Below are positions 6,123 to 27,384 of a DNA stretch of 64,000 bases, piece after piece. Position 1 is the stretch's first letter; each line of letters opens with the position of its first letter. Source of the DNA: Haloterrigena alkaliphila (lineage in GTDB: Archaea; Halobacteriota; Halobacteria; Halobacteriales; Natrialbaceae); assembly GCF_017352155.2 (NCBI RefSeq), contig NZ_CP071462.1:1798001-1862000 (forward strand). The letters run 5' to 3'. The notes under the pieces were generated by a model. That model saw only the letters and a list, made by a program, of their open reading frames with translations, was not told where the DNA came from and did no database searches. The translations under genes were made by a program, and so were the position numbers.

Positions 6123-6481
6123 TTTGCTACCACACCGACAGACCAACTGTCCGACTATTTGTTATCGTATTCGTATCAACTGTTTCTCGGGCGTTTTGAG
6201 GGGCTAATTCCGCTAACGACAGGAATCGTTTCGCCCGCCGACAGTAAGAAGTGGCTACAGCGGCGACCAGCGGGCCGAACTGTTCGGTGTTGAGTTGCGG
6301 ACTCGTGGTGGCCTGGTATGGCTGTCCCTACCACGCGCTCCCGTGCGGACGGTCGGCGGAGTCGAGTCGTCGGACCCATCGACTGTGCGCACTCGAGGCG
6401 ACGACGGCCGTCGCTGTGTGGTGATCGCCTGAAGAATGTGAGTATCGCTGTGAAACCCGTTACCGAACGTACGAAGCCGTG
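6123..6481. other. Intergenic region, no gene seen
   Basis: 359 bases between the start of the PadR gene and the end of cspA, both on the minus strand. It must hold the PadR promoter (AT-rich stretch near 6155-6185) and the cspA terminator. I see no ORF with coding character and no clear structured RNA. Confidence 0.5.
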
Positions 6482-6676
6482 TTACAGGCGGGTGACGTTG
6501 GTGGCGCGGGGGCCCTTGGGGGCCTGTTCGATGTCGAATTCGATCTCTGTGCCTTCTTCGAGGTCCGGACCGCCAACGTCTTCCATGTGGAAGAAAACGT
6601 CCTCGTCCGCGTCGTCAGTCTCGATGAAACCGTAGCCGCCTGTGTCGTTGAAGAAATCAACGTTTCCTTTCGCCAT
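6482..6676 (-). CDS. cspA: Cold-shock domain protein
   Basis: 64 residues, a complete single cold-shock domain. RNP1 is present as GGYGFIETDD and RNP2 as DVFFHMEDV, with the aromatic residues that stack on single-stranded nucleic acid. The C-terminal strand QAPKGPRATNV is the usual last strand. Such proteins bind RNA or ssDNA and act as RNA chaperones in the cytoplasm; several paralogues per genome are usual in haloarchaea. A TATA-like box (CATTATACGT, minus strand, 6701-6710) lies 25-34 bp before the ATG, so the mRNA is probably leaderless. Confidence 0.95.
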   Translation of the reverse strand: MAKGNVDFFNDTGGYGFIETDDADEDVFFHMEDVGGPDLEEGTEIEFDIEQAPKGPRATNVTRL

Positions 6677-6700
6677 TGCAACCGGAGAGAGCGCTGCGAC

Positions 6701-6710
6701 ACGTATAATG
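6701..6710 (-). promoter_or_regulatory. cspA TATA box
   Basis: CATTATACGT read on the minus strand, 25-34 bp upstream of ATG 6676, consistent with a leaderless cspA transcript. The remaining bases to 7017 (about 300) hold no gene that I can support. Confidence 0.5.
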
Positions 6711-7017
6711 GTTGTGTTCTTCGTATCCGTCGACTGCCGAACGCTCGTTCGGCCGATATCCGGGTGTACGCCGCGGTTGACAGCCGGATACCGAGTTCAC
6801 TGCTACGGCTGCTGTCGAACGAACGCAGTCGCGAGGGCTGCTCGAGCTCGCTCCGGATCGGGCCCGCGATACTCGCCCGAGTGGGGAGGAAGTAGACCGG
6901 ACGGTCCCCTCGAGTCGCGGGTTCGAACCCGAGTCGCGGATTCGGGACACCGGGCGAACCCCGCGTCTCGAGGCAGTCTCGAATCGTTTAGGTGGCTTCG
7001 ATGGATACGCGACGTGC

Positions 7018-7746
7018 ATGAGTCGATCGCAGACCCAGCCGTCGGCCGCGCCCACGATCGCGCAGGTGGCCCTGATCGGGCTGTTCGTGACGGCGCTGGT
7101 GACGGCGCAGTTGACGGCATCGAAGGTGCTCGCGTTCTCCCTGCCGGTCTCGCTCCCGATCACCGGCGCGGAGCTGGCGCTGCCCGGTGCGGCGCTGGCC
7201 TACGCGCTGACGTTCCTGGCGAGCGATTGTTACGCGGAGCTGTACGGCCGACGGGCGACGCAGGTGGTCGTCAACGTCGGCTTCGCGATGAACGTCGTCG
7301 TGCTCGCGCTCGTCTGGTCGACGATCGCGGCGCCCGCGGCGGATCCCGGCGCCGCCGACCAGTTCGCGACCGTACTCGGCGCCTCGACGAACATCGTCCT
7401 CGGGAGTTTGCTCGCGTACGTGGTCAGCCAGAACTGGGACGTGGCCGTCTTCCACCGGATCCGCGCGTACACCGGGCGGGAGAAGCTCTGGCTGCGAAAC
7501 ATCGCCTCGACGGCCAGCAGTCAGGCCATCGACACCGTCCTCTTCGTGGGGGTCGCCTTCTCGCTGGCCCCGTCGCTGATCGGCGTGGGTCCGGTCCTCC
7601 CGGCCGGCGACCTCCTCGCGCTGATGCTCGGGCAGTACCTGCTGAAACTCCTCATCGCGGTCCTCGATACGCCGGTCGTCTACGCCATCGTCTCGCTCGT
7701 CCGCTCTCGCGAACCGACGGCCGACGACGACACCGCTGCGGTCTGA
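7018..7746 (+). CDS. Queuosine/archaeosine precursor transporter (VUT/YhhQ family)
   Basis: 242 residues with about six hydrophobic segments: residues 15-35, 55-75, 85-105, 120-140, 175-195 and 205-225. The family signature is seen in the second and third segments (LTFLASDCYAELYGRRATQ) and in the fifth (ASQAIDTVLFVGVAF-like region, written SSQAIDTVLFVGVAF here). YhhQ imports queuosine precursors in bacteria; the archaeal members are expected to import the 7-deazaguanine precursor of archaeosine for tRNA. It acts in the cytoplasmic membrane. It is a single gene, followed 89 bp later by the aminopeptidase gene in the same direction. Confidence 0.9.
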   Translation: MSRSQTQPSAAPTIAQVALIGLFVTALVTAQLTASKVLAFSLPVSLPITGAELALPGAALAYALTFLASDCYAELYGRRATQVVVNVGFAMNVVVLALVWSTIAAPAADPGAADQFATVLGASTNIVLGSLLAYVVSQNWDVAVFHRIRAYTGREKLWLRNIASTASSQAIDTVLFVGVAFSLAPSLIGVGPVLPAGDLLALMLGQYLLKLLIAVLDTPVVYAIVSLVRSREPTADDDTAAV

Positions 7747-7835
7747 AACTGCGTTCGCCGACGCCGCCGCGGTTCTCCTCGAGCGCCGGACGCGCCGAAC
7801 GGGAGCGTTTAGTGGGCCGCTCGTCAGTGTCAGGT

Positions 7836-8918
7836 ATGGACGAACGCGTCCGCGAACACGCCGAGGTACTGGTCGACTGGAGTGCGCGCGTCGAGGAGGG
7901 CGATAACGTCGTCCTCTCCGTGGGGCCCGACGCGCACGAACTCGCCGTCGCGGTCGCCGAGGCGCTCGGTGAGCGGGGTGCGAACCTGCTGGCGACCTAC
8001 GGTTCGGGCGAGATCACCCGCGCCTACCTCCGGGCCCACGACGGCGACTTCGACGAGGATCCGGCCCACGAACTCGCCCTCGTCGAGAACGCCGACGTCT
8101 ACCTCTCGCTCGGCGGTGGGCGCAACACGAGCGCGACGGCGGACGTACCCGGCGAGATGCGTCGGGCCCACCGCAGCGCCAGAACCGGGATCCGCGAAAC
8201 GCGTCTCGACACGCGCTGGGTGTCGACGGTCCACCCGACCCGGTCGCTCGCCCAGCAGGCCACCATGGCCTACGAGGAGTACCAGGACTTCGCGTACAGC
8301 GCGATCCTCCGGGACTGGGAGTCGCTGGCCGACGAGATGGCGCGGATGAAGGACCTGCTCGACGAGGGGTCGGAGGTCCGACTGGTCTCTGCCGGCACCG
8401 ACCTCACCATGCGGATCGAGGGCCGCACGGCGGTCAACAGCGCCGCCTCGGTCGCGTACGACTCGCACAACCTCCCCAGCGGCGAGGTCTTCACCGCGCC
8501 ATACGCCACCGAGGGCGAGGTAACCTTCGACGTCCCGATGACGCTGCACGGCGAGTCGGTCCGAAACGTCCGCCTCGAGTTCGAGGCCGGCGAGGTGGTC
8601 GACTACGAGGCCGAACAGGGCGAGGCGGTGATCGGCGAGATCCTCGAGACCGACGACGGCGCGCGCCGACTGGGCGAACTGGGGATCGGCATGAACCGCG
8701 GGATCGACCGCTACACGGACAACATCCTCTTCGACGAGAAGATGGGCGACACGATCCACCTCGCGCTCGGCCGGGCCTACGACGCGAACCTCCCCGAGGG
8801 CGAGTCGGGCAACGACTCCGCGGTCCACGTCGACCTGATCACCGACGTGAGCGAGGACTCGCGCCTCGAGATCGACGGCGACGTCGTGCAACGAAACGGT
8901 CGGTTTCGGTGGGAGTAG
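7836..8918 (+). CDS. M29-family aminopeptidase (thermophilic metallo-aminopeptidase)
   Basis: 360 residues from ATG 7836. The order and motifs follow aminopeptidase T/PepS. An N-terminal Rossmann-like half contains VLVDWSARVEEGDNVVL and HELAVAVAEAL. The metal-binding half has LPSGEVFTAPYATEGEVTFD (Glu ligands), IGMNRGIDRYTDNILFDEKM with the Glu of F-D-E-K-M, and a final H-L-A-L-G-R-A-Y. Expected action is cytoplasmic removal of N-terminal residues from peptides with two metal ions. Length is slightly below bacterial members (about 370-410). It probably has its own promoter or is read through from the transporter gene. Confidence 0.92.
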   Translation: MDERVREHAEVLVDWSARVEEGDNVVLSVGPDAHELAVAVAEALGERGANLLATYGSGEITRAYLRAHDGDFDEDPAHELALVENADVYLSLGGGRNTSATADVPGEMRRAHRSARTGIRETRLDTRWVSTVHPTRSLAQQATMAYEEYQDFAYSAILRDWESLADEMARMKDLLDEGSEVRLVSAGTDLTMRIEGRTAVNSAASVAYDSHNLPSGEVFTAPYATEGEVTFDVPMTLHGESVRNVRLEFEAGEVVDYEAEQGEAVIGEILETDDGARRLGELGIGMNRGIDRYTDNILFDEKMGDTIHLALGRAYDANLPEGESGNDSAVHVDLITDVSEDSRLEIDGDVVQRNGRFRWE

Positions 8919-18266: not shown

Positions 18267-18340
18267 GGGCTCGTGGTCTAGCTGGTTATGACGCGGCCTT
18301 TACAAGGCCGAGGTCGGTGGTTCGAACCCGCCCGAGCCCA
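18267..18340 (+). tRNA. tRNA-Val (anticodon UAC)
   Basis: 74 bases form a full cloverleaf: acceptor GGGCTCG/CGAGCCC, D arm with AGCTGGTTA, anticodon stem CGGCC/GGCCG around loop TTTACAA (anticodon TAC), T arm with GGTTCGAAC and discriminator A. No intron and no encoded CCA. A long perfect stem-loop follows one base later. Confidence 0.95.
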
Positions 18341-18341
18341 C

Positions 18342-18378
18342 TATTGCTGTCGCGAACAATCCGTGAGCGGCAGCAATA
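18342..18378 (+). repeat. Post-tRNA stem-loop, tRNA-Val copy
   Basis: A 12-bp stem (TATTGCTGTCGC with GCGGCAGCAATA, one G-T pair) encloses the 13-base loop GAACAATCCGTGA. It starts 2 bases after the tRNA. The loop agrees with those behind tRNA-Phe and tRNA-His while the outer stem differs but still pairs. It has no T-run like a bacterial terminator. Confidence 0.8.
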
Positions 18379-18390
18379 TGACGCGAGTGG

Positions 18391-18600
18391 CGGGTTCGAA
18401 CCCTGCAAGTCACAGCGCTCGAGCGAATGCGAGAGCGACCGTTTTGCTTCGGTTCGAACCCGATCGAGCCTATTTCGGGGACGAACGTTAGTGAGCCACA
18501 GAAATGGAGGGCGGTTCGAACGAGACCGAGATTCTGGCTACAGGCGGAGGTTCTCGGACGTTGTTCGAACCCGCTCGAGCCCGTCTCTCGGCCACGAACA
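18391..18600 (+). repeat. Decayed tandem copies of the tRNA-Val 3' half
   Basis: Four further T-arm cores, GTTCGAAC, lie at 18394, 18452, 18514 and 18563. Three are followed by acceptor-like text (GATCGAGCC, GACCGAG, GCTCGAGCCC) close to the tRNA's CCCGAGCCC. After the copy at 18452, TTTCGGGGACGAACG...GTGAGCCACAGAAA resembles a worn version of the post-tRNA stem-loop. Each unit is 50-75 bases and none could be a functional tRNA. No gene lies between 18341 and 18695. Confidence 0.65.
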
Positions 18601-18663
18601 CTCGTGTCTCGAGTCCGATGGGTCGTCGGCGACACGGCTGTTACTACTCCCGTGTTCACAACA

Positions 18664-18671
18664 GCGTTTAA
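18664..18671 (+). promoter_or_regulatory. TATA box of the small zinc-finger gene
   Basis: GCGTTTAAGG lies 25-32 bp before ATG 18696, the leaderless distance, and so supports translation of this very short gene. Confidence 0.45.
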
Positions 18672-18695
18672 GGGCGTCACAGCGTACGGGTGCTG

Positions 18696-18809
18696 ATGAC
18701 GTGTGATGTCTGTGGCGAGGCTATCGAAGGGGTGCGACTGTACAAAGCGAGTACGAGCAAAGGACGGACGGGCGGTCTCGATGTCTTTCACCGGAATTGC
18801 GCACCGTAG
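18696..18809 (+). CDS. Small CPxC-like zinc-finger protein, 37 residues
   Basis: MTCDVCGEAIEGVRLYKAST begins a 37-residue frame ending HRNCAP. Two Cys (C-D-V-C) near the start and H-x2-C near the end form a C-x2-C...H-x2-C zinc-knuckle pattern, common among very small haloarchaeal proteins, some of which affect growth or biofilm traits. The TATA box at leaderless distance and the conserved Cys/His spacing are the evidence. The function is unknown. Confidence 0.7.
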   Translation: MTCDVCGEAIEGVRLYKASTSKGRTGGLDVFHRNCAP

Positions 18810-19146
18810 GCGAGATAGCTGCTCCGGATTCCGTTCAGGCCAGTTCCGGCCTCGAGCCCAGGGTCACGCCGTGTGAGCGGACGCGACGTGGAACTGATGT
18901 TCCACGAACCGACACCTGGCTGGTACGAACTGGCTAGAGTAGGTCATGCACGCCGTTGTCTGACTGGCGACGGACGAGTAACGCGGGACTAGGGGCGTCG
19001 CAGTAGCTATCGAGCCGTTAGAATGCCTCTTTGAAGAGAGAAGCACGATCGGTCCCCGGTCGCTACCGCGGGTCGATTTCGCGGCGCAAAACGGCGGCGC
19101 TGCCCTCGAGCCAACCGAATCGAGCGTCGGTGTCCGTGCGCGGCCG
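18810..19146. other. Intergenic region, no gene seen
   Basis: 337 bases between the small zinc-finger gene and the end of the DUF7344-like gene. Both strands are interrupted by stops, and no tRNA, hairpin family or repeat that occurs elsewhere in the window is visible. Confidence 0.5.
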
Positions 19147-19593
19147 TCAGTGTTTGAGTCGGGCGACGTTCTCCCGAACCCGGCCCAGCAGCCCGTCGCC
19201 GGACTCGTGTTCGAGGGCGGCGTGGAGCGTCGAGTTCTCCGGTTCGTCCTTGACGACGACCCGGAGGTAGGGCTCGAGCTGGTCGAAGTTGCTCGCGAGG
19301 ACGACGGTGTGGTTCTCCTCGTCGTGGTCGACGACGCCCGCGTCGGCCAGTTTCGGGACGTGACACTGGACCGAGGAGACGTAGACGCTCTTGTACTCGT
19401 TTTTGGCTACTTCGTCCGGTGGTACGTCGTGTTCCCAGCCGGCCACCTGCTCGGCCAGCGCGGAGAGCTCGATCGGGTCTTCCTGCCCGCGGAGCGCGTA
19501 GAGGAGATATCGTCGCCGGCGGTTAGCCAGCAGCTCGAGGATGGTATCTGCAGAGAGTTCCTGCTCCTCCTGACTCGAGGCAAGTGCTTCCAT
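19147..19593 (-). CDS. DUF7344-like winged-helix protein
   Basis: 148 residues. The sequence fits the haloarchaeal HTH family seen as DUF7344. LSADTILELLANRRRRYLLY forms the first helices. ELSALAEQVAGWEHDVPPDE follows, then a recognition helix with YVSSVQCHVPKLADAGVVDH and a wing ENHTVVLASN. The C-terminal third is helical. It is presumably a cytoplasmic transcription regulator, with targets unknown. It has its own promoter and no co-directional partner. Confidence 0.82.
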   Translation of the reverse strand: MEALASSQEEQELSADTILELLANRRRRYLLYALRGQEDPIELSALAEQVAGWEHDVPPDEVAKNEYKSVYVSSVQCHVPKLADAGVVDHDEENHTVVLASNFDQLEPYLRVVVKDEPENSTLHAALEHESGDGLLGRVRENVARLKH

Positions 19594-19785
19594 AACACGA
19601 TGTTACTCGCCAGACCGGAAAAGGGTGTCTTGAATATCTATAATTCCAACAGACTGGCGTCAATGATTGATAAACTCGTTTGTATTCTCCACGTTACCGA
19701 TCGATATGGTGTCCTAACCGAACCGATGGTGGGCGGATCGGGTATCGGATCTGGACGACGGCGCGGTGGCTCCGATTCGAAATCC

Positions 19786-19794
19786 TTTTTTATA
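19786..19794 (+). promoter_or_regulatory. tRNA-Phe promoter
   Basis: CTTTTTTATACC (core 19786-19794) lies 23-31 bp before the first base of tRNA-Phe, so transcription would start at or just before the mature 5' end. Confidence 0.65.
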
Positions 19795-19816
19795 CCATGG
19801 ACGGAGGTAGAGATGC

Positions 19817-19890
19817 GCCGCCTTAGCTCAGACTGGGAGAGCACTCGACTGAAGATCGAGCTGTCCCCGGTTCAAATCCGGGAGGCGGCA
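19817..19890 (+). tRNA. tRNA-Phe (anticodon GAA)
   Basis: 74 bases with acceptor GCCGCCT/AGGCGGC, D arm with AGCTCAGACTGGGAGAGC, anticodon stem CTCGA/TCGAG around CTGAAGA (anticodon GAA), T arm CCCCGGTTCAAATCCGGG and discriminator A. No intron. It is immediately followed by a post-tRNA stem-loop. Confidence 0.95.
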
Positions 19891-19923
19891 TTTCTGTCGC
19901 GAACAACTCGTGAGCGACAGAAA
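19891..19923 (+). repeat. Post-tRNA stem-loop, tRNA-Phe copy
   Basis: A 10-bp perfect stem, TTTCTGTCGC with GCGACAGAAA, surrounds the 13-base loop GAACAACTCGTGA. It starts on the base after the tRNA. The loop is the same type as behind tRNA-Val and tRNA-His, with a different but complementary stem. Confidence 0.82.
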
Positions 19924-20050
19924 TGGAACCCGACCGGTTTGAACCAGACGAGTCGCAGCCCGCGAGCGAAGTCGATCGAAACGGCGGAGCCGTTTCGTGA
20001 TGACGAGAGAGCTTCGCTCTCTCGAACCACGAGCAGGAACGTCTCGGCGA

Positions 20051-20078
20051 GGTTCAAATTCGGGAGGTGGCGCTTCTG
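20051..20078 (+). repeat. Decayed copy of the tRNA-Phe 3' end
   Basis: 28 bases agree at 24 positions with 19869-19896, i.e. the T-loop, the T stem, the acceptor 3' strand and the first bases of the stem-loop. A more worn T-arm (GGTTTGAACCAGACGAG) lies at 19936. Between them are two small palindromes, CGAAACGGC-gga-GCCGTTTCG and CGAGAGAGC-ttc-GCTCTCTCG. The pattern is that of an attachment-site duplication or tandem copying of the tRNA end. Confidence 0.7.
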
Positions 20079-20167
20079 CTGGACCCGAAATCACGTGTCC
20101 GGCGAGTCTCCACGACCGCTATCGGAATGAAGAAAGAATCATATGTTGTCGACCGAGTGACAGCCCA

Positions 20168-21295
20168 ATGCGCGAACGGATCTACAGCATCGACGCCGTT
20201 CGAGCCGTCGCGATGGCGTTCATCGTCGCCATCCACGCCGATCTGTTCCGAGGGCTCGGTGCGACCGGGAACGCCGTCAATCTCGTCATCGACACGGTGG
20301 GCCGGTTCGCGGTTCCGTTTTTCTTCCTGACGTCAGGGTACCTCTTCGCTCGCAAGTGTACGCGTACGGAGCCCGCGGCCTACGTCAGGGCCCACCTCGA
20401 GCGAGTCGGTTCGATCTACGGCTACGCGGTGCTGGGTTACTTCCCGCTCGTTCTCCTCGTGGCCGCGGGCGGGACCGCTCGAGCGGGCGGCGACGTGTCG
20501 AGTGCCGTCCTCGCCCGCGCGCTCGAGGCGCTATCACCTCTCGGACTGCTCTACTACGGCGATTCGGTGCTGCTGTTCCTGTGGTTCCTGCCGTCGCTCG
20601 CGATTTCGATCGCTCTCGTCTACGCCGTCGTCGCCGTCGAGAAGACCCGGTACCTGCTGCCGGTCGCCGCCACGTTCCACGTCGTGGGGATCCTCGACCA
20701 GAGTTACCCGATGCTCGTCGACGTCCCGTTCGTGACTCGAGACGCGCTGTTCTTCGGGTTCTTCTACACGAGCGTCGGCTACTGCATCGGCTCGTGGCAG
20801 TGGTCGCCGAGCCGCGACCGGAGCGGGCTGTACCTCGCCGCGACGGTGACGTTCGGCGCGATTCACCTCGCCGAGCGGTACGTCCTCGGCTACGTGCTGA
20901 CGGGCGACTCGATCGCGCAGGGCGTCTACGTCACCAAGTACACCGCGACGACCCCGCTGTTCGCGACGGCGCTGTTCGTCTACGTCCTCTCGAGGCCGAC
21001 CCTCGGGAAGGGAACGGGGCTGCCCTGGCTCGGGAGTCACGCGGTCTGGATCTACGTCGTCCACCCCCTCGTCCTGTTCTCGCTCGTCGGGGTGAGCGGG
21101 GCCGTCGAACTGCTCGGCTACGACCTCGGCGAGAGCGCCCTCTGGCACGTGGCGCTGTCGACGCTCACGTACGCCGGCGCGCTGGCTATCTCCCTGTTTC
21201 TCACGCGGACGACGCTTCTCCGGCGGGCGAGTCGCGTCACCTCCCGGGACCGCCTCCGAACCGTGGTGAACGCGATGGTAGGCGGGCGAAACTGA
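20168..21295 (+). CDS. Acyltransferase 3-family membrane protein
   Basis: 375 residues with about ten membrane segments. The family start is seen in IYSIDAVRAVAMAFIVAIHA: R and the conserved His of the first segment correspond to the catalytic region of OafA/WecH-type acyltransferases. RFAVPFFFLTSGYLFA follows as the second signature. Such enzymes transfer acetyl or other acyl groups to sugars or lipids at the membrane; the acceptor is unknown. It is a single gene, 100 bp downstream of the tRNA-Phe-derived copies, in ordinary GC-rich DNA. Confidence 0.88.
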   Translation: MRERIYSIDAVRAVAMAFIVAIHADLFRGLGATGNAVNLVIDTVGRFAVPFFFLTSGYLFARKCTRTEPAAYVRAHLERVGSIYGYAVLGYFPLVLLVAAGGTARAGGDVSSAVLARALEALSPLGLLYYGDSVLLFLWFLPSLAISIALVYAVVAVEKTRYLLPVAATFHVVGILDQSYPMLVDVPFVTRDALFFGFFYTSVGYCIGSWQWSPSRDRSGLYLAATVTFGAIHLAERYVLGYVLTGDSIAQGVYVTKYTATTPLFATALFVYVLSRPTLGKGTGLPWLGSHAVWIYVVHPLVLFSLVGVSGAVELLGYDLGESALWHVALSTLTYAGALAISLFLTRTTLLRRASRVTSRDRLRTVVNAMVGGRN

Positions 21296-21469
21296 CCCGC
21301 GCGGTCGGAATCGGCCTCGCGTCGGCGGTGGCTATCGCGTCGGCAGTGGCTACGCCGCGGTCGCGTCGCGGGCGGTCGTTTCGCAGCACCGCGACGGGTC
21401 GCTGGGCCGAATCGAGGGACGGCTTGCTGGCTGGCCAACGGTTATCCGTCCGCCGGGAATAGCACGCCC

Positions 21470-22330
21470 GTGAGCAGCGACACGATCCAAAACGAGAGCG
21501 ACACGTTCGATATCGGCGACACGACCATCCACCGGCTCGGGTACGGGGCGATGCGCATCACCGGCGACGAGATCATCGGCCCGCCCGAGGACGAGGCCCA
21601 GGCCCGCGAGGTGCTCGAGCGGGCGGTCGAGGTCGGCGTCGACTTCGTCGACACGGCCGACTCCTACGGCCCCGCGGTCAGCGAGCGACTCATCGGCGAG
21701 GCCATCGGCGACCGCGACGACGTGCTGGTCGCGACCAAGGCCGGCCTGCTGCGCAACCGCGAGGGCGAGTGGCTCGCCCACGGCGATCCGGACTACATCC
21801 GCAATCAGGTGCTCACCTCGCTCGACCGACTCCGTACCGATACCATCGACCTCTACCAGTTCCACCGACCCGACGACGACACGCCCTTCGAGGACTCCGT
21901 CGCCGCCTTCGCGGAACTCAAAGACGAGGGGCTCGTCGACGAGGTGGGACTCAGCAACGTCTCGCCCGAACTCATCGATCAGGCCCGCGAGCAGGTCGAG
22001 GTCGCGACCGTCCAGAACCGGTACAACCTCGACGACCGCGGCGCCGCCGACTCCCTCGAGCTCTGTACGGAGGCGGGCATCGGCTTCATCCCGTGGGCGC
22101 CGATCAACGGCGACGATCTGGACGAACACGGCGACCTCCTCGACGAGATCGCCGAGGATCACGACGCGACGCGCCGACAGGTCGGGCTGGCGTGGCTCCT
22201 CGAGCGCTCGGAGGTCATCCTCCCGATTCCGGGCACGTCCGATCCCGACCACCTCGAGTCGAACGTCGCGGCCTCGCAGCTGTCGCTGTCCGACGACGAG
22301 GTCCAGCGACTGACCGAGGCGGCGGACTGA
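21470..22330 (+). CDS. Aldo/keto reductase (second copy)
   Basis: 286 residues from a GTG start. The AKR tetrad is present: Asp and Tyr in VDFVDTADSYGPAVSE, Lys in VLVATKAGLLRNREG and His in YQFHRPDDDTPFE. The end contains ILPIPGTSDPDHLESNV for the cofactor phosphate. It begins with HRLGYGAMRITGDEI, typical of a different AKR group (AKR5/AKR14-like, often oxidoreductases of small aldehydes) from the protein at 10090. The acceptor is not predictable. Confidence 0.9.
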   Translation: MSSDTIQNESDTFDIGDTTIHRLGYGAMRITGDEIIGPPEDEAQAREVLERAVEVGVDFVDTADSYGPAVSERLIGEAIGDRDDVLVATKAGLLRNREGEWLAHGDPDYIRNQVLTSLDRLRTDTIDLYQFHRPDDDTPFEDSVAAFAELKDEGLVDEVGLSNVSPELIDQAREQVEVATVQNRYNLDDRGAADSLELCTEAGIGFIPWAPINGDDLDEHGDLLDEIAEDHDATRRQVGLAWLLERSEVILPIPGTSDPDHLESNVAASQLSLSDDEVQRLTEAAD

Positions 22331-22414
22331 ACGCCTCCGCCGTGGTCCTCACCCCCTATCTGAGAAACACAAGAAGACGTTAATTTATTGTGCGCTGAAC
22401 AGAGAACCGAACGC

Positions 22415-22534
22415 ATGAACGTACTCAAGATAGTCGCTGAAGCGATCGAGGGATACATTTCCGGTGGAGCCGACGAAGCGGTGTCGGAAACCGTCGAGGA
22501 GACGGCCGAAGAGGCGACCGGGAAAGACCTCTGA
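22415..22534 (+). CDS. Small acidic protein, 39 residues
   Basis: A short frame from ATG 22415: MNVLKIVAEAIEGYISGGAD and then a strongly acidic amphipathic helix (EAVSETVEETAEEATGKDL). Start context and composition look like a real haloarchaeal micro-gene, with an AT-rich promoter-like stretch (TTAATTTATTG, 22379-22390) 25-35 bp before the ATG. No motif is recognised. A function cannot be given. Confidence 0.55.
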   Translation: MNVLKIVAEAIEGYISGGADEAVSETVEETAEEATGKDL

Positions 22535-22779
22535 CGAGCGGGAGGCGTCGTCAGAGGTCTCGCGTCCGGCTAACCACGCGAACCGATTCGGGACCGACCG
22601 GAACGAGCCGTCTGCCGAAGAACGGGGACGCACGACCGGTACTGGCCGCGTCTCGTCGCGACGCCGCGGTCCGTCTCGGCGCGTCGACCGCCGGTCGTCA
22701 GTCCACCTACAGCGGGATTCCCGTCCGTCCCGTCCAGTTCAGGCCCCACGCCTACCGGACCGGACGTGGGAGGGCCGAT

Positions 22780-23172
22780 ATGGGTGATCGAACTGCGCTG
22801 GACGATGCGACCGAGGACGAGCGAGTCGCCCTCGAGGAGATCGAACGCGGCCTCGAGGAGTTCCGCCGGGCCCACGGCGCCCTCGTGGAGTTCCACCACG
22901 CGGTCGGCAGCGGAATCGAACACTTCGACGAGGCCGAGGAGCGACTGAACGAGGACGACGACCTCTCGGAGCGACTCCGCGCGGAGATCCTCCCGGCTGG
23001 CGTCACCGACGACGGCAAACTGACCTACCAACTCGTCGCCGAGTTCGAGGAAGGACTGCTGGCCGACGTCGAATCGATCGGCGACGACGCGCTCGCGGCG
23101 CTCGCCGACGGCCGGCGGTATCCGATCGAACGCGCGGAGCGCGACGGGATCGAGGTCGACGAGTCGGCGTAG
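22780..23172 (+). CDS. Conserved haloarchaeal hypothetical protein
   Basis: 130 residues, helical and acidic, with His-rich FHHAVGSGIEHFDEAEERL in the middle. The last 60 residues (RLRAEILPAGVTDDGKLTYQ to the end) look globular. I do not recognise the family. It is convergent with the long membrane protein gene 28 bp away. Confidence 0.7.
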   Translation: MGDRTALDDATEDERVALEEIERGLEEFRRAHGALVEFHHAVGSGIEHFDEAEERLNEDDDLSERLRAEILPAGVTDDGKLTYQLVAEFEEGLLADVESIGDDALAALADGRRYPIERAERDGIEVDESA

Positions 23173-23200
23173 CGTCCGGGCCCCGAGTCGTCGATCGAAC

Positions 23201-24502
23201 TCAGTTCTCGAGTTGACTGGCGATGCGATGAGAGAGTTCGGTGAGGTAGAACGACCCCCAGATCGCCGCGACGGCGGCGCCGACGACGTCGTAGACGAGG
23301 TCGACGATCGTGTCGCTGAGGCCGTGCTGGGCGACGACCGCGCTGAGGCCGAGTTGCTGTGCGCCCCAGTCGAGCGCGAACTCGAGCAGTTCCCAGAGGA
23401 CGCCGAAGGCCAGCACGAACACGAGGATGAACGCGACCAGCATCCGCGGCGGGACGTAGATCTCGTCGGTGTGGAGGTCGATCGCCCGGACGACGGCGTA
23501 CCCCGCGGCGGCGACGATCGACGCCGACATCGTGTGGGTCAGGCTGTCCCACGGGCCGATGAACGCGTACAGCCCGGCCGAGCCCAAGGCGTGCAGGAAC
23601 ACCGCCGCGGTGAGCCAGAAGACGAGTCCGGGCTCGAGGGGGAGCCGACGGTCGCGCTCGAGTACCGCGGGGAGGAACGTGATCCCGAGCGCGATGGCGC
23701 TGTTGGAGACCGTCGTCAGGTCTCGCGCGACGATACCGTACACGAGGAGGACGGCGAGGGCGGCCTGCATGACTCGCGAGAGCACGACCACGGTTCCATC
23801 GGGGACGTCGAGTCGGTCGCGGATCAGGCTCGGGACGGCGGTTGGTCCCTCGTCCGGCGCATCGCCGTCCCCGTCCGACGCACCGTCGGTGGGGACGTAC
23901 GTTCGCGTGCGGTCGATCTCCTCCGGAGCGTAGGCAAAGTACCGGCCGAAGAGGACCGCCGCGAGCAGTCCGGCCAGCGCCGCGTACGCGAAGTCGATCA
24001 TCAGGTCGTAGTTGGCCGCGTCCTGCGACTGCCCGCCCAGAATGTAGTCGGTCCCGAACGCCACGTCCGAGAGCCACTGGGCGACGTTCCACGTGCCGGC
24101 GACGGCCAGCGTCGTGAGCACGACCAGCACGACGGCGAACGCGTGGTTCATCCGAACTTCGGTAAACCGATCGATCTCGACGGTCGCGAGGAGCGCCACC
24201 GAAGCCACGGCGACGTAGGTCGCGACCGTCGTCAGCGGCGACTCGCCGAACACCGTCGCGTCGACGACCGGGATGGCGACCAGCACCAGTAGTTCCCAGG
24301 GCGGCATCGCGAGCGGATCCCGGAACGCGGCCACGGGGAGCACGGCGATCGCGACCGCGAAGCCGGTGAAGACGAACCAGCGATAGGAGTTCTCGAGGCC
24401 GTGGCTGATCGCGAACGCGACCAGAACGATCGTGACGACCCAGGCCAGCACGGCGTTTCGCTGGGTCTCGTCGAAGCTCCGGCCGAGTCTGGCGTCCGCC
24501 AT
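23201..24502 (-). CDS. Polytopic membrane protein with internal duplication (DUF2238-like)
   Basis: 433 residues with at least eleven hydrophobic segments. Two related stretches are seen: WNVAQWLSDVAFGTDYI with ANYDLMIDFAYAALAGLLAA near residues 140-195, and LWELLEFALDWGAQQLG with SDTIVDLVYDVVGAAVAA near residues 375-425. In each, W-x(2,3)-E/Q is followed by an aspartate-containing D-x-x-x-D segment, as in YjdF/DUF2238 proteins. A 30-residue acidic loop separates the halves. The role is unknown. It is a single gene between convergent neighbours. Confidence 0.75.
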   Translation of the reverse strand: MADARLGRSFDETQRNAVLAWVVTIVLVAFAISHGLENSYRWFVFTGFAVAIAVLPVAAFRDPLAMPPWELLVLVAIPVVDATVFGESPLTTVATYVAVASVALLATVEIDRFTEVRMNHAFAVVLVVLTTLAVAGTWNVAQWLSDVAFGTDYILGGQSQDAANYDLMIDFAYAALAGLLAAVLFGRYFAYAPEEIDRTRTYVPTDGASDGDGDAPDEGPTAVPSLIRDRLDVPDGTVVVLSRVMQAALAVLLVYGIVARDLTTVSNSAIALGITFLPAVLERDRRLPLEPGLVFWLTAAVFLHALGSAGLYAFIGPWDSLTHTMSASIVAAAGYAVVRAIDLHTDEIYVPPRMLVAFILVFVLAFGVLWELLEFALDWGAQQLGLSAVVAQHGLSDTIVDLVYDVVGAAVAAIWGSFYLTELSHRIASQLEN

Positions 24503-24686
24503 ACGCCGTCGTACACGACACGCCTCCTAAACGCGGGCGCTTGAGTACGCCGCCGAACCGAGGTTCGGTCTTCAAGCGGGTCGCTCGCGGGAGACACCTC
24601 GAGTGCTATCGCATCGCGGTTGCTGCTGTCCGTAGAGTGTTGCTGCTGTCCGAAAAGTGACCTTCCCGCGTGCGAACAGATGGCAT

Positions 24687-25544
24687 ATGGTCGACTCGGA
24701 CGACTTCGACGCTCTCGAGCACGGGCTGGCGCGGGTCAACGGCGTCAAACTGCACTACGTGACCGCCGGCGAGGGGCCGCCGCTGGTCTTGCTCCACGGC
24801 TGGCCCCAGACCTGGTACGAGTGGCGCGAGGTGATCCCCGACCTCGCCGCCGAGTACACCGTCATCGCCCCGGACCTGCGGGGGCTGGGTGACTCGGAGG
24901 CGCCGCTATCGGGCTACGACAAGGACACCGTCGCGACCGACGTGCGCGAACTCGTTCACGACCTCGGGTTCGGCGACGAGCCGATCGCGCTCGTCGGCCA
25001 CGACTGGGGGATGCCGACGGCCTACGCCTACGCCGCCCAGTACCGCGACGAGGTCGACGCCCTCTGCGTCCTCGAGGCGGGGCTCCCGGGCGTCCGCGAG
25101 GACGAGAAACGCCACCTCTGGCACACGCGCTTTCACGGCGTTCGCGACCTGCCGGAGCGGCTGGTCGCCGGCCGCGAAGAACTCTACCTCTCGTGGTTCT
25201 ACAAGGAGGGCGCCTACGATCCCTCGGCGATCGACGAGGACGCCCGCGACGAGTACGTCCGCTGTTACTCCCAGGCCGGGGGCCTACGCGGTGGGTTCGA
25301 GTACTACCGCGCCTACGACGAGGACGCCGAGAATAACGGTGCGCACGCCGCGGACCCGCTCGAGATGCCCGTCCTCGCGCTCGGTGGCGCGGCGTCCTTC
25401 CGAACGCTGCCGATCGAAGACATGGAAACCGTCGCCACCGATGTCGAGGGTGAGGTCGTCGAGCGAGCCGGCCACTGGATCCCCGAGGAGCGCCCCGACT
25501 ACTTCGTCGAGCGGTTGACGACGTTTCTCGAGGACGTGACGTAA
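24687..25544 (+). CDS. Epoxide hydrolase-like alpha/beta hydrolase
   Basis: 285 residues from ATG 24687. The motif set is that of epoxide hydrolases/haloalkane dehalogenases: oxyanion-hole HGWPQTW at residues 35-41, nucleophile Asp in LVGHDWGMPTAYAYA, and the final catalytic His in ERAGHWIPEERPD. The cap region includes two Tyr candidates. A cytoplasmic enzyme opening epoxides with water is the most likely role, with dehalogenation as an alternative. It is the last host gene before the AT-richer segment that ends at tRNA-His. Confidence 0.88.
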   Translation: MVDSDDFDALEHGLARVNGVKLHYVTAGEGPPLVLLHGWPQTWYEWREVIPDLAAEYTVIAPDLRGLGDSEAPLSGYDKDTVATDVRELVHDLGFGDEPIALVGHDWGMPTAYAYAAQYRDEVDALCVLEAGLPGVREDEKRHLWHTRFHGVRDLPERLVAGREELYLSWFYKEGAYDPSAIDEDARDEYVRCYSQAGGLRGGFEYYRAYDEDAENNGAHAADPLEMPVLALGGAASFRTLPIEDMETVATDVEGEVVERAGHWIPEERPDYFVERLTTFLEDVT

Positions 25545-25788
25545 GGAGTGGCTCGAGGTGGGGGTGGGGCTCGAGCGATGCCTGTGGCCGGACCAGTCGG
25601 CGGCCCGATTGACGCCCAAGATAGTATGCGAAGATGAGAATCGAACCGACAAGACCGGTGATGAACACCGATAACGAAACATAGTCTAGGACACCGCAAG
25701 ACACGAGGTGACACTTCGTTCTCGGATGAGAGACAATCGCAAAAAATCCTAACTGGGATTTTTCAGCCCAACTGTGGGACTGACCAAT

Positions 25789-26139
25789 ATGGGGTTCCTT
25801 AGCAACATCCGCAAGATGAAACGGACAGCGGATAAGGTATCCAGAACGGCCAAGAAAATAGATAGAAGCGCTCAAGATCATAGAAAGAAGACTCTCAAGG
25901 CGAAATTTTACCAAGGACAAATCAGTGCATCTGAGTTCGAAAGCGAATTCTCTGGCCAGAACGCGGGCATCAAAGTCATACTTGAGGATGTCAATGGTGT
26001 CGGCGAATCCACGAGTCAAGCAATTGCCCAAGAGTACGAGAATCTCGCCGACTTAGAAGGAACTGATCGTGAACGACTCGAGTCCGTCCGCGGAGTTGGT
26101 CCAAGTACGGCTGATGCAGTTCTTGATCTGATTCGGTGA
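25789..26139 (+). CDS. Protein with tandem helix-hairpin-helix motifs
   Basis: 116 residues from ATG 25789. The first half is basic (KMKRTADKVSRTAKKIDRSA), unusual in a haloarchaeon. The second half holds two helix-hairpin-helix motifs, VNGVGESTSQAIAQEYENLA and VRGVGPSTADAVLDLI, separated by 20 residues. These bind DNA backbone non-specifically, as in RadA, XPF or DisA. The lower GC content and the neighbouring recombinase suggest that the gene belongs to an integrated element. A DNA-binding role for the element is likely but unproven. Confidence 0.75.
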   Translation: MGFLSNIRKMKRTADKVSRTAKKIDRSAQDHRKKTLKAKFYQGQISASEFESEFSGQNAGIKVILEDVNGVGESTSQAIAQEYENLADLEGTDRERLESVRGVGPSTADAVLDLIR

Positions 26140-26172
26140 TCGGCACGCACTCTCGATTTGATCACCTGTCTA

Positions 26173-27042
26173 CTAGTGATCTAACTGATTTCGCAGCACG
26201 CCTACACGGTCCCAGCCGTACCTGTCGAGAACGATCGCGAACGCGTACAAGAGTTCCCGGACCTCGTATGGATCAGCGCCAGCGTCGATCGATCCCCGGT
26301 TATCCCGATTCTTCGAAGATTCCTCTTTTGGGATACGGAGTACCGCATTATTCGTATCGACCCATGAGACGACCGCGCGTTTCACCTCAACGGGGCGTAA
26401 GCTTGTATCCAAGCTGGTCCAGACGAGGGATGGTATCTTCCAGTTGTTCATACGATCCCAGTCATCGGGCGTGACCTCCGTCATAGGCTTCTCCAGCATC
26501 ATCGAGATGTATCTTTTCCACCTCGAGCGTTCCTCTGGGGTGAGGTTACTATACGCCGGTACAGAACCATACTCGAGTGCCGCTTCGCGGAGGTCCTTCC
26601 GTTCGTCAAGCGTGAAGAAATCCTGTGGTTGGTACTCATCCCCTGATGGGTAGAAGGATATATCCGGATCCCATGGTTGTTCTCCCCGTTCGTGCTGTTT
26701 CCACTTGAAGAGGCGATTGAGGGCTTTCAGATATTCCGCCTTATTGGAGTTTTGCCAGTCCCTTCCAGCGATTTCTCGAAGATAGGCGTCAGCATGGTCG
26801 TGAGTAAGTTGCGTGGTATACCCTTCCCGGTCCCATAACCACCGATAGATCTTCGAGAGCCGGTATGCCATGTTCCGCGTCACAGCAAGACTGTATCCCT
26901 CGGCGACGTCCGGGCTCTTACCGAGGTCGTATAGCCAACCCAAAACTTCCTTCCGGTGTTGTTTGTAGTCTTCCAACTGGCGTTGGTTCAGATACTCTCG
27001 ATCGTCGCTGATGACCAATGGGACGTCCTCTGGGAGGGTCAT
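26173..27042 (-). CDS. Tyrosine recombinase lacking its catalytic C-terminus
   Basis: 289 residues. The N-terminal SAM-like domain (residues 15-120) and the start of the catalytic domain are present: WTSLDTSLRPVEVKR contains the first catalytic Arg, and VLRIPKEESSKN is the beta-hairpin with Lys. Afterwards the normal sequence stops: the last 45 residues (SIDAGADPYEVRELLYAF to the end) contain neither His-x-x-Arg nor a Tyr nucleophile in context. The family continues for about 120 more residues. The gene is therefore a truncated integrase, inactive on its own, beside the HhH gene and 270 bp from tRNA-His, the probable integration site. Confidence 0.8.
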   Translation of the reverse strand: MTLPEDVPLVISDDREYLNQRQLEDYKQHRKEVLGWLYDLGKSPDVAEGYSLAVTRNMAYRLSKIYRWLWDREGYTTQLTHDHADAYLREIAGRDWQNSNKAEYLKALNRLFKWKQHERGEQPWDPDISFYPSGDEYQPQDFFTLDERKDLREAALEYGSVPAYSNLTPEERSRWKRYISMMLEKPMTEVTPDDWDRMNNWKIPSLVWTSLDTSLRPVEVKRAVVSWVDTNNAVLRIPKEESSKNRDNRGSIDAGADPYEVRELLYAFAIVLDRYGWDRVGVLRNQLDH

Positions 27043-27199
27043 GATCGGACCCCCGAATGGAATTTGTCCTGATATGATTGGAATCGCCCGACAGCGTCGA
27101 TTCGACCGTTCGTACTAACTTGGCAGGCTTTCGGCGTCATTTGTGTCCTCGATGTGTTGACTCCGAAAACCGGCGTCTAAGGACTGAAGAAGCCTGAAA

Positions 27200-27223
27200 A
27201 AGTCCGGGTGCGAGAATCGAACC
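27200..27223 (-). repeat. Direct repeat of the tRNA-His 3' end (probable att)
   Basis: AAGTCCGGGTGCGAGAATCG plus AACC is identical in 27200-27223 and 27310-27333, the latter being the tRNA-His T arm and acceptor end. A looser match (GAGAATCGAACC) is present at 25636-25647 at the other end of the AT-richer segment. Such repeats result from integration into tRNA genes; with the truncated recombinase between, they suggest a remnant element. Confidence 0.7.
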
Positions 27224-27278
27224 ACGGTCGTTCCGCTCACTGCGTTCGCTTCACTCCCTGATTCGATTCTCGACGGAT

Positions 27279-27310
27279 TCCTGCGGCTCACGAATTTGTT
27301 CGCCGCAGGA
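27279..27310 (-). repeat. Post-tRNA stem-loop, tRNA-His copy
   Basis: On the minus strand TCCTGCGGC pairs with GCCGCAGGA (9 bp) around the 14-base loop GAACAAATTCGTGA, starting one base after the tRNA-His C73 position. The loop keeps the GAACAA...CGTGA ends seen behind tRNA-Val and tRNA-Phe. Confidence 0.8.
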
Positions 27311-27311
27311 A

Positions 27312-27384
27312 GTCCGGGTGCGAGAATCGAACCCGCGTCTCAGCCTCCACAAGGCTGAAGGATAACCACTACCCCAACCCGGAC
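27312..27384 (-). tRNA. tRNA-His (anticodon GUG)
   Basis: 73 bases read from 27384 to 27312. An encoded G-1 pairs with C73, as expected for archaeal tRNA-His; acceptor TCCGGGT/ACCCGGA, anticodon stem CAGCC/GGCTG around TTGTGGA (anticodon GTG), T arm with GGTTCGATTCTCGC. No intron. Confidence 0.95.

Follow-up and report, generated by a model that had tools for sequence, protein, structure and literature searches.

What is a hairpin with fixed loop ends and a changing stem doing directly behind three different tRNA genes? The question is raised by tRNA-Val, tRNA-Phe and tRNA-His in a stretch of 64,000 nucleotides (nt) on the 3.82-Mb chromosome of the haloarchaeon Haloterrigena alkaliphila (contig NZ_CP071462.1, positions 1,798,001 to 1,862,000), which we call the window. 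Going beyond the initial annotation of these hairpins, we find that each of them, here named H1, opens a longer unit, at the other end of which stands a copy of the 3′ end of the tRNA in front. The order is tRNA, H1 hairpin, an inverted copy of the T-loop and T-stem, a second hairpin (H2), and a direct copy of the last 20 nt of the tRNA (nt 54-73), which is present in tandem in some units. The comparisons described below establish this anatomy and its boundaries, the tRNA specificity and stem covariation of the units, their class-wide spread, and the gain or loss of whole units with exact junctions. The features of the window are as follows.

18267 to 18340, plus strand: tRNA-Val(tac) (Rfam RF00005 and ARAGORN)
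18321 to 18340, plus strand: copied segment of tRNA-Val, nt 54-73
18342 to 18378, plus strand: H1 hairpin of tRNA-Val, loop GAACAATCCGTGA (fold z -5.1; H1 model E 2.7e-7)
18389 to 18400, plus strand: inverted T-loop/T-stem arm of the first Val unit, GGCGGGTTCGAA
18401 to 18452, plus strand: region of hairpin H2 in the first Val unit
18453 to 18472, plus strand: tRNA-Val nt 54-73 copied in direct orientation (17/20), with a decayed second hairpin behind the copy
18564 to 18583, plus strand: another direct copy of tRNA-Val nt 54-73, 18/20, followed by a decayed hairpin
19817 to 19890, plus strand: tRNA-Phe(gaa), nt 54-73 at 19871-19890 (Rfam RF00005 and ARAGORN)
19891 to 19923, plus strand: H1 hairpin of tRNA-Phe, loop GAACAACTCGTGA (fold z -6.4; H1 model E 3.6e-9)
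19933 to 19944, plus strand: inverted T-loop/T-stem arm of the Phe unit, ACCGGTTTGAAC (sequence and fold)
20053 to 20072, plus strand: direct copy of tRNA-Phe nt 54-73, 17/20
27312 to 27383, minus strand: tRNA-His(gtg), nt 54-73 at 27331-27312 (Rfam RF00005 and ARAGORN)
27279 to 27310, minus strand: H1 hairpin of tRNA-His, loop GAACAAATTCGTGA (fold z -5.8; H1 model E 6.5e-12)
27262 to 27273, minus strand: inverted T-loop/T-stem arm of the His unit, TCGAGAATCGAA
27222 to 27261, minus strand: region of hairpin H2 in the His unit, with apical loop GAACGCAGTGA
27202 to 27221, minus strand: direct copy of tRNA-His nt 54-73, exact, 20/20

The three hairpins had been placed correctly, and all of them fold far more stably than shuffled sequences. 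Their loop ends GAACAA and CGTGA, described at the outset as fixed, occur together three times in the window as against 0.13 occurrences expected. A covariance model of H1 that was trained on other genomes only returned exactly these three hairpins as its strong matches in the window (E<1e-4), the next match having an E-value of 0.008. The proposed covariation of the stems was borne out by 129 two-sided changes compared with 40.7 in shuffles, and none of 500 shuffles scored as high.

The edges of the unit are sharp. Among 198 first units the identity between the tRNA and its direct copy is 0.93 at nt 53, 0.93-0.99 over nt 54-72 and 0.89 at nt 73, and it drops outside the repeat to 0.42 at nt 51, 0.70 at nt 52, 0.55 at nt 74 and 0.38 at nt 76. 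The identity inside the repeat depends on the search threshold, and the larger set of units was gathered partly by the H1 pattern; the edges are independent of the threshold and are identical in a set of 131 units. The inverted arm pairs with nt 54-62 and has its edge at 54/53, the paired fraction being 0.86 at nt 54 and 0.44 at nt 53. It also tracks the individual tRNA: at nt 57 A stands with T 148 times and G with C 73 times, with only 16 and 6 transition mismatches (p 1.5e-38). Inserts between the repeats are 66-258 bp long, within the limit of the search, and hold no integrase gene.

In the H1 loop, which can be written GARC..GYGA, the R and Y positions covary (A-T 117, G-C 89, G-T 4, A-C 1), and the tip of H2 often resembles this loop, with GARC-n-GYGA in 64 of 104 cases. 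An inner helix of H2 with at least four of five pairs is present in 82 units, its sequences being highly varied. The H1 loops (GARCAA..CGYGA) and the inner parts of H2 are alike at about 30 anticodon types and across families. A resemblance outside the family is that of CGAACAAGTAGCGTGAGC in 23S rRNA (stretches L002, L008 and others) to the H1 loop with its tandem G-A mismatches, which is due either to chance or to a common stable loop; these matches were identified by eye as 23S rRNA and set aside.

The census of the whole genome took in the flanks of all 46 tRNA genes, a direct copy being counted when at least 17 of 20 positions matched within 360 nt and an inverted arm when at least 8 of 9 did. 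A direct copy lies behind 23 of the 46 tRNAs and is accompanied by the inverted arm in 22 of those 23, while the ends of other tRNAs matched the same flanks in 2 of 2026 control trials. Strong H1 matches number 18 in the genome. Twelve begin 1-6 nt 3′ of a tRNA, three more lie within arrays or behind a partial tRNA-Gly copy, and two apparent orphans have in front of them an exact copy of nt 61-73 from Pro-tgg (19 kb upstream) and Arg-tcg (54 kb). Both of these displaced units have the source tRNA on the same strand and tyrosine integrase genes beside them, and the simplest reading is that they were pushed away by integrated elements. The one match without a tRNA link, at chromosome positions 1753739-1753769 (minus strand, E 6.9e-5), has no tRNA end in front of it. 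A chance family, as the initial annotation saw it, would lack tRNA-linked copies elsewhere or be scattered without covariation; the copies are in fact found throughout the class, and 17 of the 18 strong matches are linked to tRNAs. The annotated lack of the hairpin behind tRNA-Thr and tRNA-Gly is correct for Thr(ggt) and Gly(ccc) in the window but does not extend to a rule for tRNA-Gly, since units stand behind Gly-tcc and Gly-gcc of this genome and behind Gly-ccc of a congener. Rfam scans at gathering and relaxed thresholds gave only tRNAs plus one match below threshold.

Several neighbouring features were seen along the way. A 289-aa open reading frame (ORF) at 26173-27042 (minus strand) adjoins the tRNA-His unit; it has a weak PHROG integrase match (E 1.5e-4) and none in Pfam, and is perhaps a remnant that used the copy of the tRNA end. 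The putative elements at tRNA-Pro(tgg) and tRNA-Arg(tcg) span chromosome positions 1647835-1667265 (~19 kb) and 2514773-2569218 (~54 kb). In both of these probable elements nt 61-73 form a 13-bp repeat, and the integrase genes lie at the far end. A partial tRNA-Gly gene carrying its own H1/H2 unit lies 1.6 kb downstream of tRNA-Gly(tcc) on the reverse strand. A metallo-beta-lactamase-like ORF separates it from the true tRNA gene, and no integrase was seen in the sequence read around this locus.

The family extends well beyond this genome. A pattern joining T-loop and H1 was found in 185 of 292 Halobacteria genomes (50 of 77 genera); it catches only part of the family, so that a genome with no match is not necessarily free of units. 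The reversed control pattern gave no match, and the pattern was found in none of 242 genomes from other classes of Halobacteriota. A scan of named genomes gave Natrinema, Natrialba, Halorubrum, Haloarcula, Halorhabdus and Halopiger among its examples; its few non-haloarchaeal matches look like chance. The only match in IMG/VR lies inside a coding region of a phage contig and was judged to be chance as well. This large repeat family appears to be new to the literature: our search, which covered open papers and not subscription journals, found no description of the tRNA-linked unit.

Orthologous tRNAs of congeners carry mostly different units, and relatives differ by whole units whose junctions are exact at nt 54. 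At tRNA-Arg(tct) the congener G004 has one extra unit of exactly 124 bp (104 bp plus the 20-bp copy) that is absent from genome G002 and from H. alkaliphila. The layout in G004 is copy, unit, copy, where the other two have one copy and then the same next unit; the G004 flank is 89% identical to that of G002 over 1385 bp. Similarly, tRNA-Gln(ctg) of Haloarcula amylolytica has two units more than that of H. sebkhae. Losses occur too, since at tRNA-Glu(ttc) the unit of G002 is missing in G004, where the copy is decayed. The direction of change in the arrays rests on few comparisons.

These observations lead us to favour, tentatively and at close to an even chance, the reading that H1 is the head of a mini-cassette of ~85-150 bp which is moved, or was once moved, by site-specific recombination in the tRNA T-loop. 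We infer that the units were made by recombination, by a tyrosine recombinase, and that a folded single strand took part. The exchange point would be the step G53/T54 of the tRNA gene, within the 7-nt T-loop, which would have the role of attI in integrons. When a cassette inserts, the copy of nt 54-73 that it brings would restore the tRNA, and the former 3′ end would be left at the far side of the cassette as an exact direct repeat. H2 would be the recombination site, with the layout of an integron attC site, its outer stem formed by the inverted T-loop arm paired with the following copy of nt 54-73, and H1, directly after the discriminator base, would be either a second folded site or a harmless 3′ border. 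The inverted arm would follow the sequence of each tRNA because the outer arms of H2 must pair. Since the arm must pair with the cassette's 3′-end copy and this copy must fit the tRNA, both could follow the tRNA without a copying step. Of the roles suggested initially, a target for element integration and a mobile hairpin preferring tRNA ends come nearest to this reading.

A number of observations weigh against it. There is no gene within the unit, and a search of the 9.5-kb flanks of all tRNAs of the genome gave no autonomous element ending in H1/H2. The outer G-C pair of attC sites (AAC/GTT boxes) would here be G53-C, which is formed in less than half of the units (the 0.44 at nt 53 given above). 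An intact H1 is about equally frequent in first (118 of 198) and later units (43 of 79), so that array polarity judged from H1 decay shows no clear trend and gives no evidence that units enter at the end of the array next to the tRNA. What looks like an extra unit in one species can also be a loss in the others through recombination between repeats. Finally, the XerA-like recombinase that all unit-rich genomes share was present in every one of the 65 genomes tested, whether or not units were detected there. Because this protein is universal it shows no association with the units, and it is therefore a candidate only.

As to other possible makers, tyrosine recombinases are present in all 24 unit-rich genomes considered, one of which has just two, one of them XerA-like. 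IS200/IS605-derived (Y1) transposases are missing in 5 of the 24, Cas1 in 11 and IS110 in 20, which counts against these enzymes as makers, though they may have been active in the past. The XerA-like core recombinase scores 20-24 bits on the integrase_gron model (cutoff 265), and no linked IntI was seen. Stretch L078 has CRISPR-DR56-like repeats at 6215-8138, ~6-8 kb behind tRNA-Lys(ttt); a Pfam search found no Cas1 in that genome.

Could the units instead act as RNA? The trailer would then fold into H1 and H2 and end transcription or guide the 3′ processing of the pre-tRNA, which would agree with the closeness of H1 to the tRNA in the 12 cases above, its T-rich start, its stable fold and its covariation. 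Pairing in H1 is indeed well kept: covariation is 0.519 compared with 0.209 after shuffling, and 88% of stem pairs are Watson-Crick as against 55% when units swap their 3′ arms. Stems that fold as RNA are expected to tolerate G-U and to avoid A-C. Mismatches of the G-T and A-C types, however, stand at 51:42 in H1 and 44:40 in the outer arm of H2, with no clear excess of G-U, whereas in the T-stems of tRNAs from the same loci they stand at 56:0 (H1 versus T-stem, p 3e-11). Because the two types are equally common in the H1 and H2 stems, unlike the T-stems, we conclude that the symmetry is kept at the level of DNA; the pattern points to palindromic DNA and away from an RNA helix. Half of the tRNAs have no unit, close species differ at the same tRNA, and pairing does not require exact copying of nt 66-73. 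The trailer or terminator suggested initially is thus not supported as the main role; a hairpin alone leaves the exact copies of the tRNA 3′ end unexplained, and we consider a functional RNA quite improbable.

The same equality of G-T and A-C is what would be expected if pairing were restored in DNA by a passive process. Such a process would need no dedicated enzyme: short repeats, direct and inverted, would allow unequal recombination and template switching, palindrome correction would keep H1 and H2 symmetric, and the copies would stay identical to the tRNA through gene conversion. The tRNA-Tyr loci of this genome and of G004 look like recombination between inverted-arm repeats within an array, and numerous deletions mediated by repeats are described in Haloquadratum, of which two lie at partial duplications of tRNAs (PMC3119063). 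A passive origin leaves unexplained how a tRNA came by its first unit and the similarity of H1 loops and H2 inner parts across anticodon types and families, and we regard it as unlikely. Another possibility is that each unit is what remains of an ordinary integrative element, its left and right ends joined after the middle was lost. A direct repeat that runs from T-loop to 3′ end is typical of tRNA-targeting tyrosine integrases. Integrase genes, weak or clear, do adjoin the arrays at tRNA-His (26173-27042) and tRNA-Lys. The apparent insertions behind Arg(tcg) and Pro(tgg), however, end in a repeat of nt 61-73 only and show no H1 at the tRNA, the unit lying beyond the far end, and no element ending in H1/H2 was found in the 9.5-kb tRNA flanks of the genome. 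The two displaced units thus weaken this explanation, and we think it improbable.

Should the mini-cassette reading be true, a tiny element would have replaced the last 20 bases in about half of all tRNA genes of many haloarchaea, and tRNA evolution would be tied to site-specific recombination. Recombination of folded DNA would extend beyond integrons and might explain the RtT repeats of E. coli, and tRNA genes would offer a natural entry site for genetic tools. Even without mobility, the units form a large and apparently undescribed repeat family that is easily detected and tested.

Behind tyrT/tyrV of E. coli lies a 178-bp repeat that has long been known. These RtT repeats (tyrT/tyrV-tpr, Rfam RF00391, rttR) are the closest known system. 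There as here, tandem units stand behind a tRNA gene, and each unit closes by repeating the tRNA 3′ end, which it also contains in inverted form ahead of an intervening hairpin (GGGGAAGGAT ... ATCCTTCCCC); the E. coli copy is 19 bp long, and an inverted copy precedes each direct one. In contrast to the haloarchaeal family, the units in K-12, which was examined at tRNA-Tyr only, are ~178 bp long, start their copy at nt 58-59 and not at nt 54, and have no GARC..GYGA H1 hairpin. The Rfam RtT model gave three matches in E. coli (best 137 bits) and none in the window or in haloarchaeal stretches L078 and L086. The haloarchaeal layout is not unique because the RtT repeats share it; apart from layout, a class-wide family at ~30 anticodon types with its own hairpins and edges is not found in the papers searched.

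Elements that target tRNAs by means of tyrosine integrases, such as SNJ2 and HF2-like ones, likewise have the tRNA 3′ end repeated in direct orientation at their two borders (PMC8371274, PMC3119063). The present units differ from them in being ~100 bp long without an integrase, in sharing hairpins at many tRNAs and in having an inverted copy of the tRNA end inside. The ~110-bp palindromic repeats of Haloquadratum (small mobile repeats, PATEs and MITEs) are likewise found in haloarchaea without a transposase; the small mobile repeats have no target duplication, many are inserted in other elements, and the available part of the report describes no tRNA link (PMC3119063).

It is tempting to see in the units an archaeal counterpart of integrons, with the T-loop as insertion site, hairpins as recombination sites, gene-less cassettes that repeatedly replace tRNA 3′ ends, a host Xer-type recombinase and a class-wide distribution, but we consider this wider proposal rather unlikely. 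Unlike integron cassettes, the units have no gene inside and no linked IntI, their target is a tRNA T-loop, and their arms are longer and tRNA-specific. The layout, however, is that of a cassette with its attC site, judged by the boxes and exchange point described for attC (PMC2727003). An integron cassette starts at the TT of G/TT, as the repeat here begins at T54 after G53, and it closes with an imperfect hairpin, as the unit does here, in which inverted halves of the core (R″/R′) form the outer arms and pair with one another. An unpaired spacer, an inner helix, a variable tip and an arrangement in tandem arrays are common to both.

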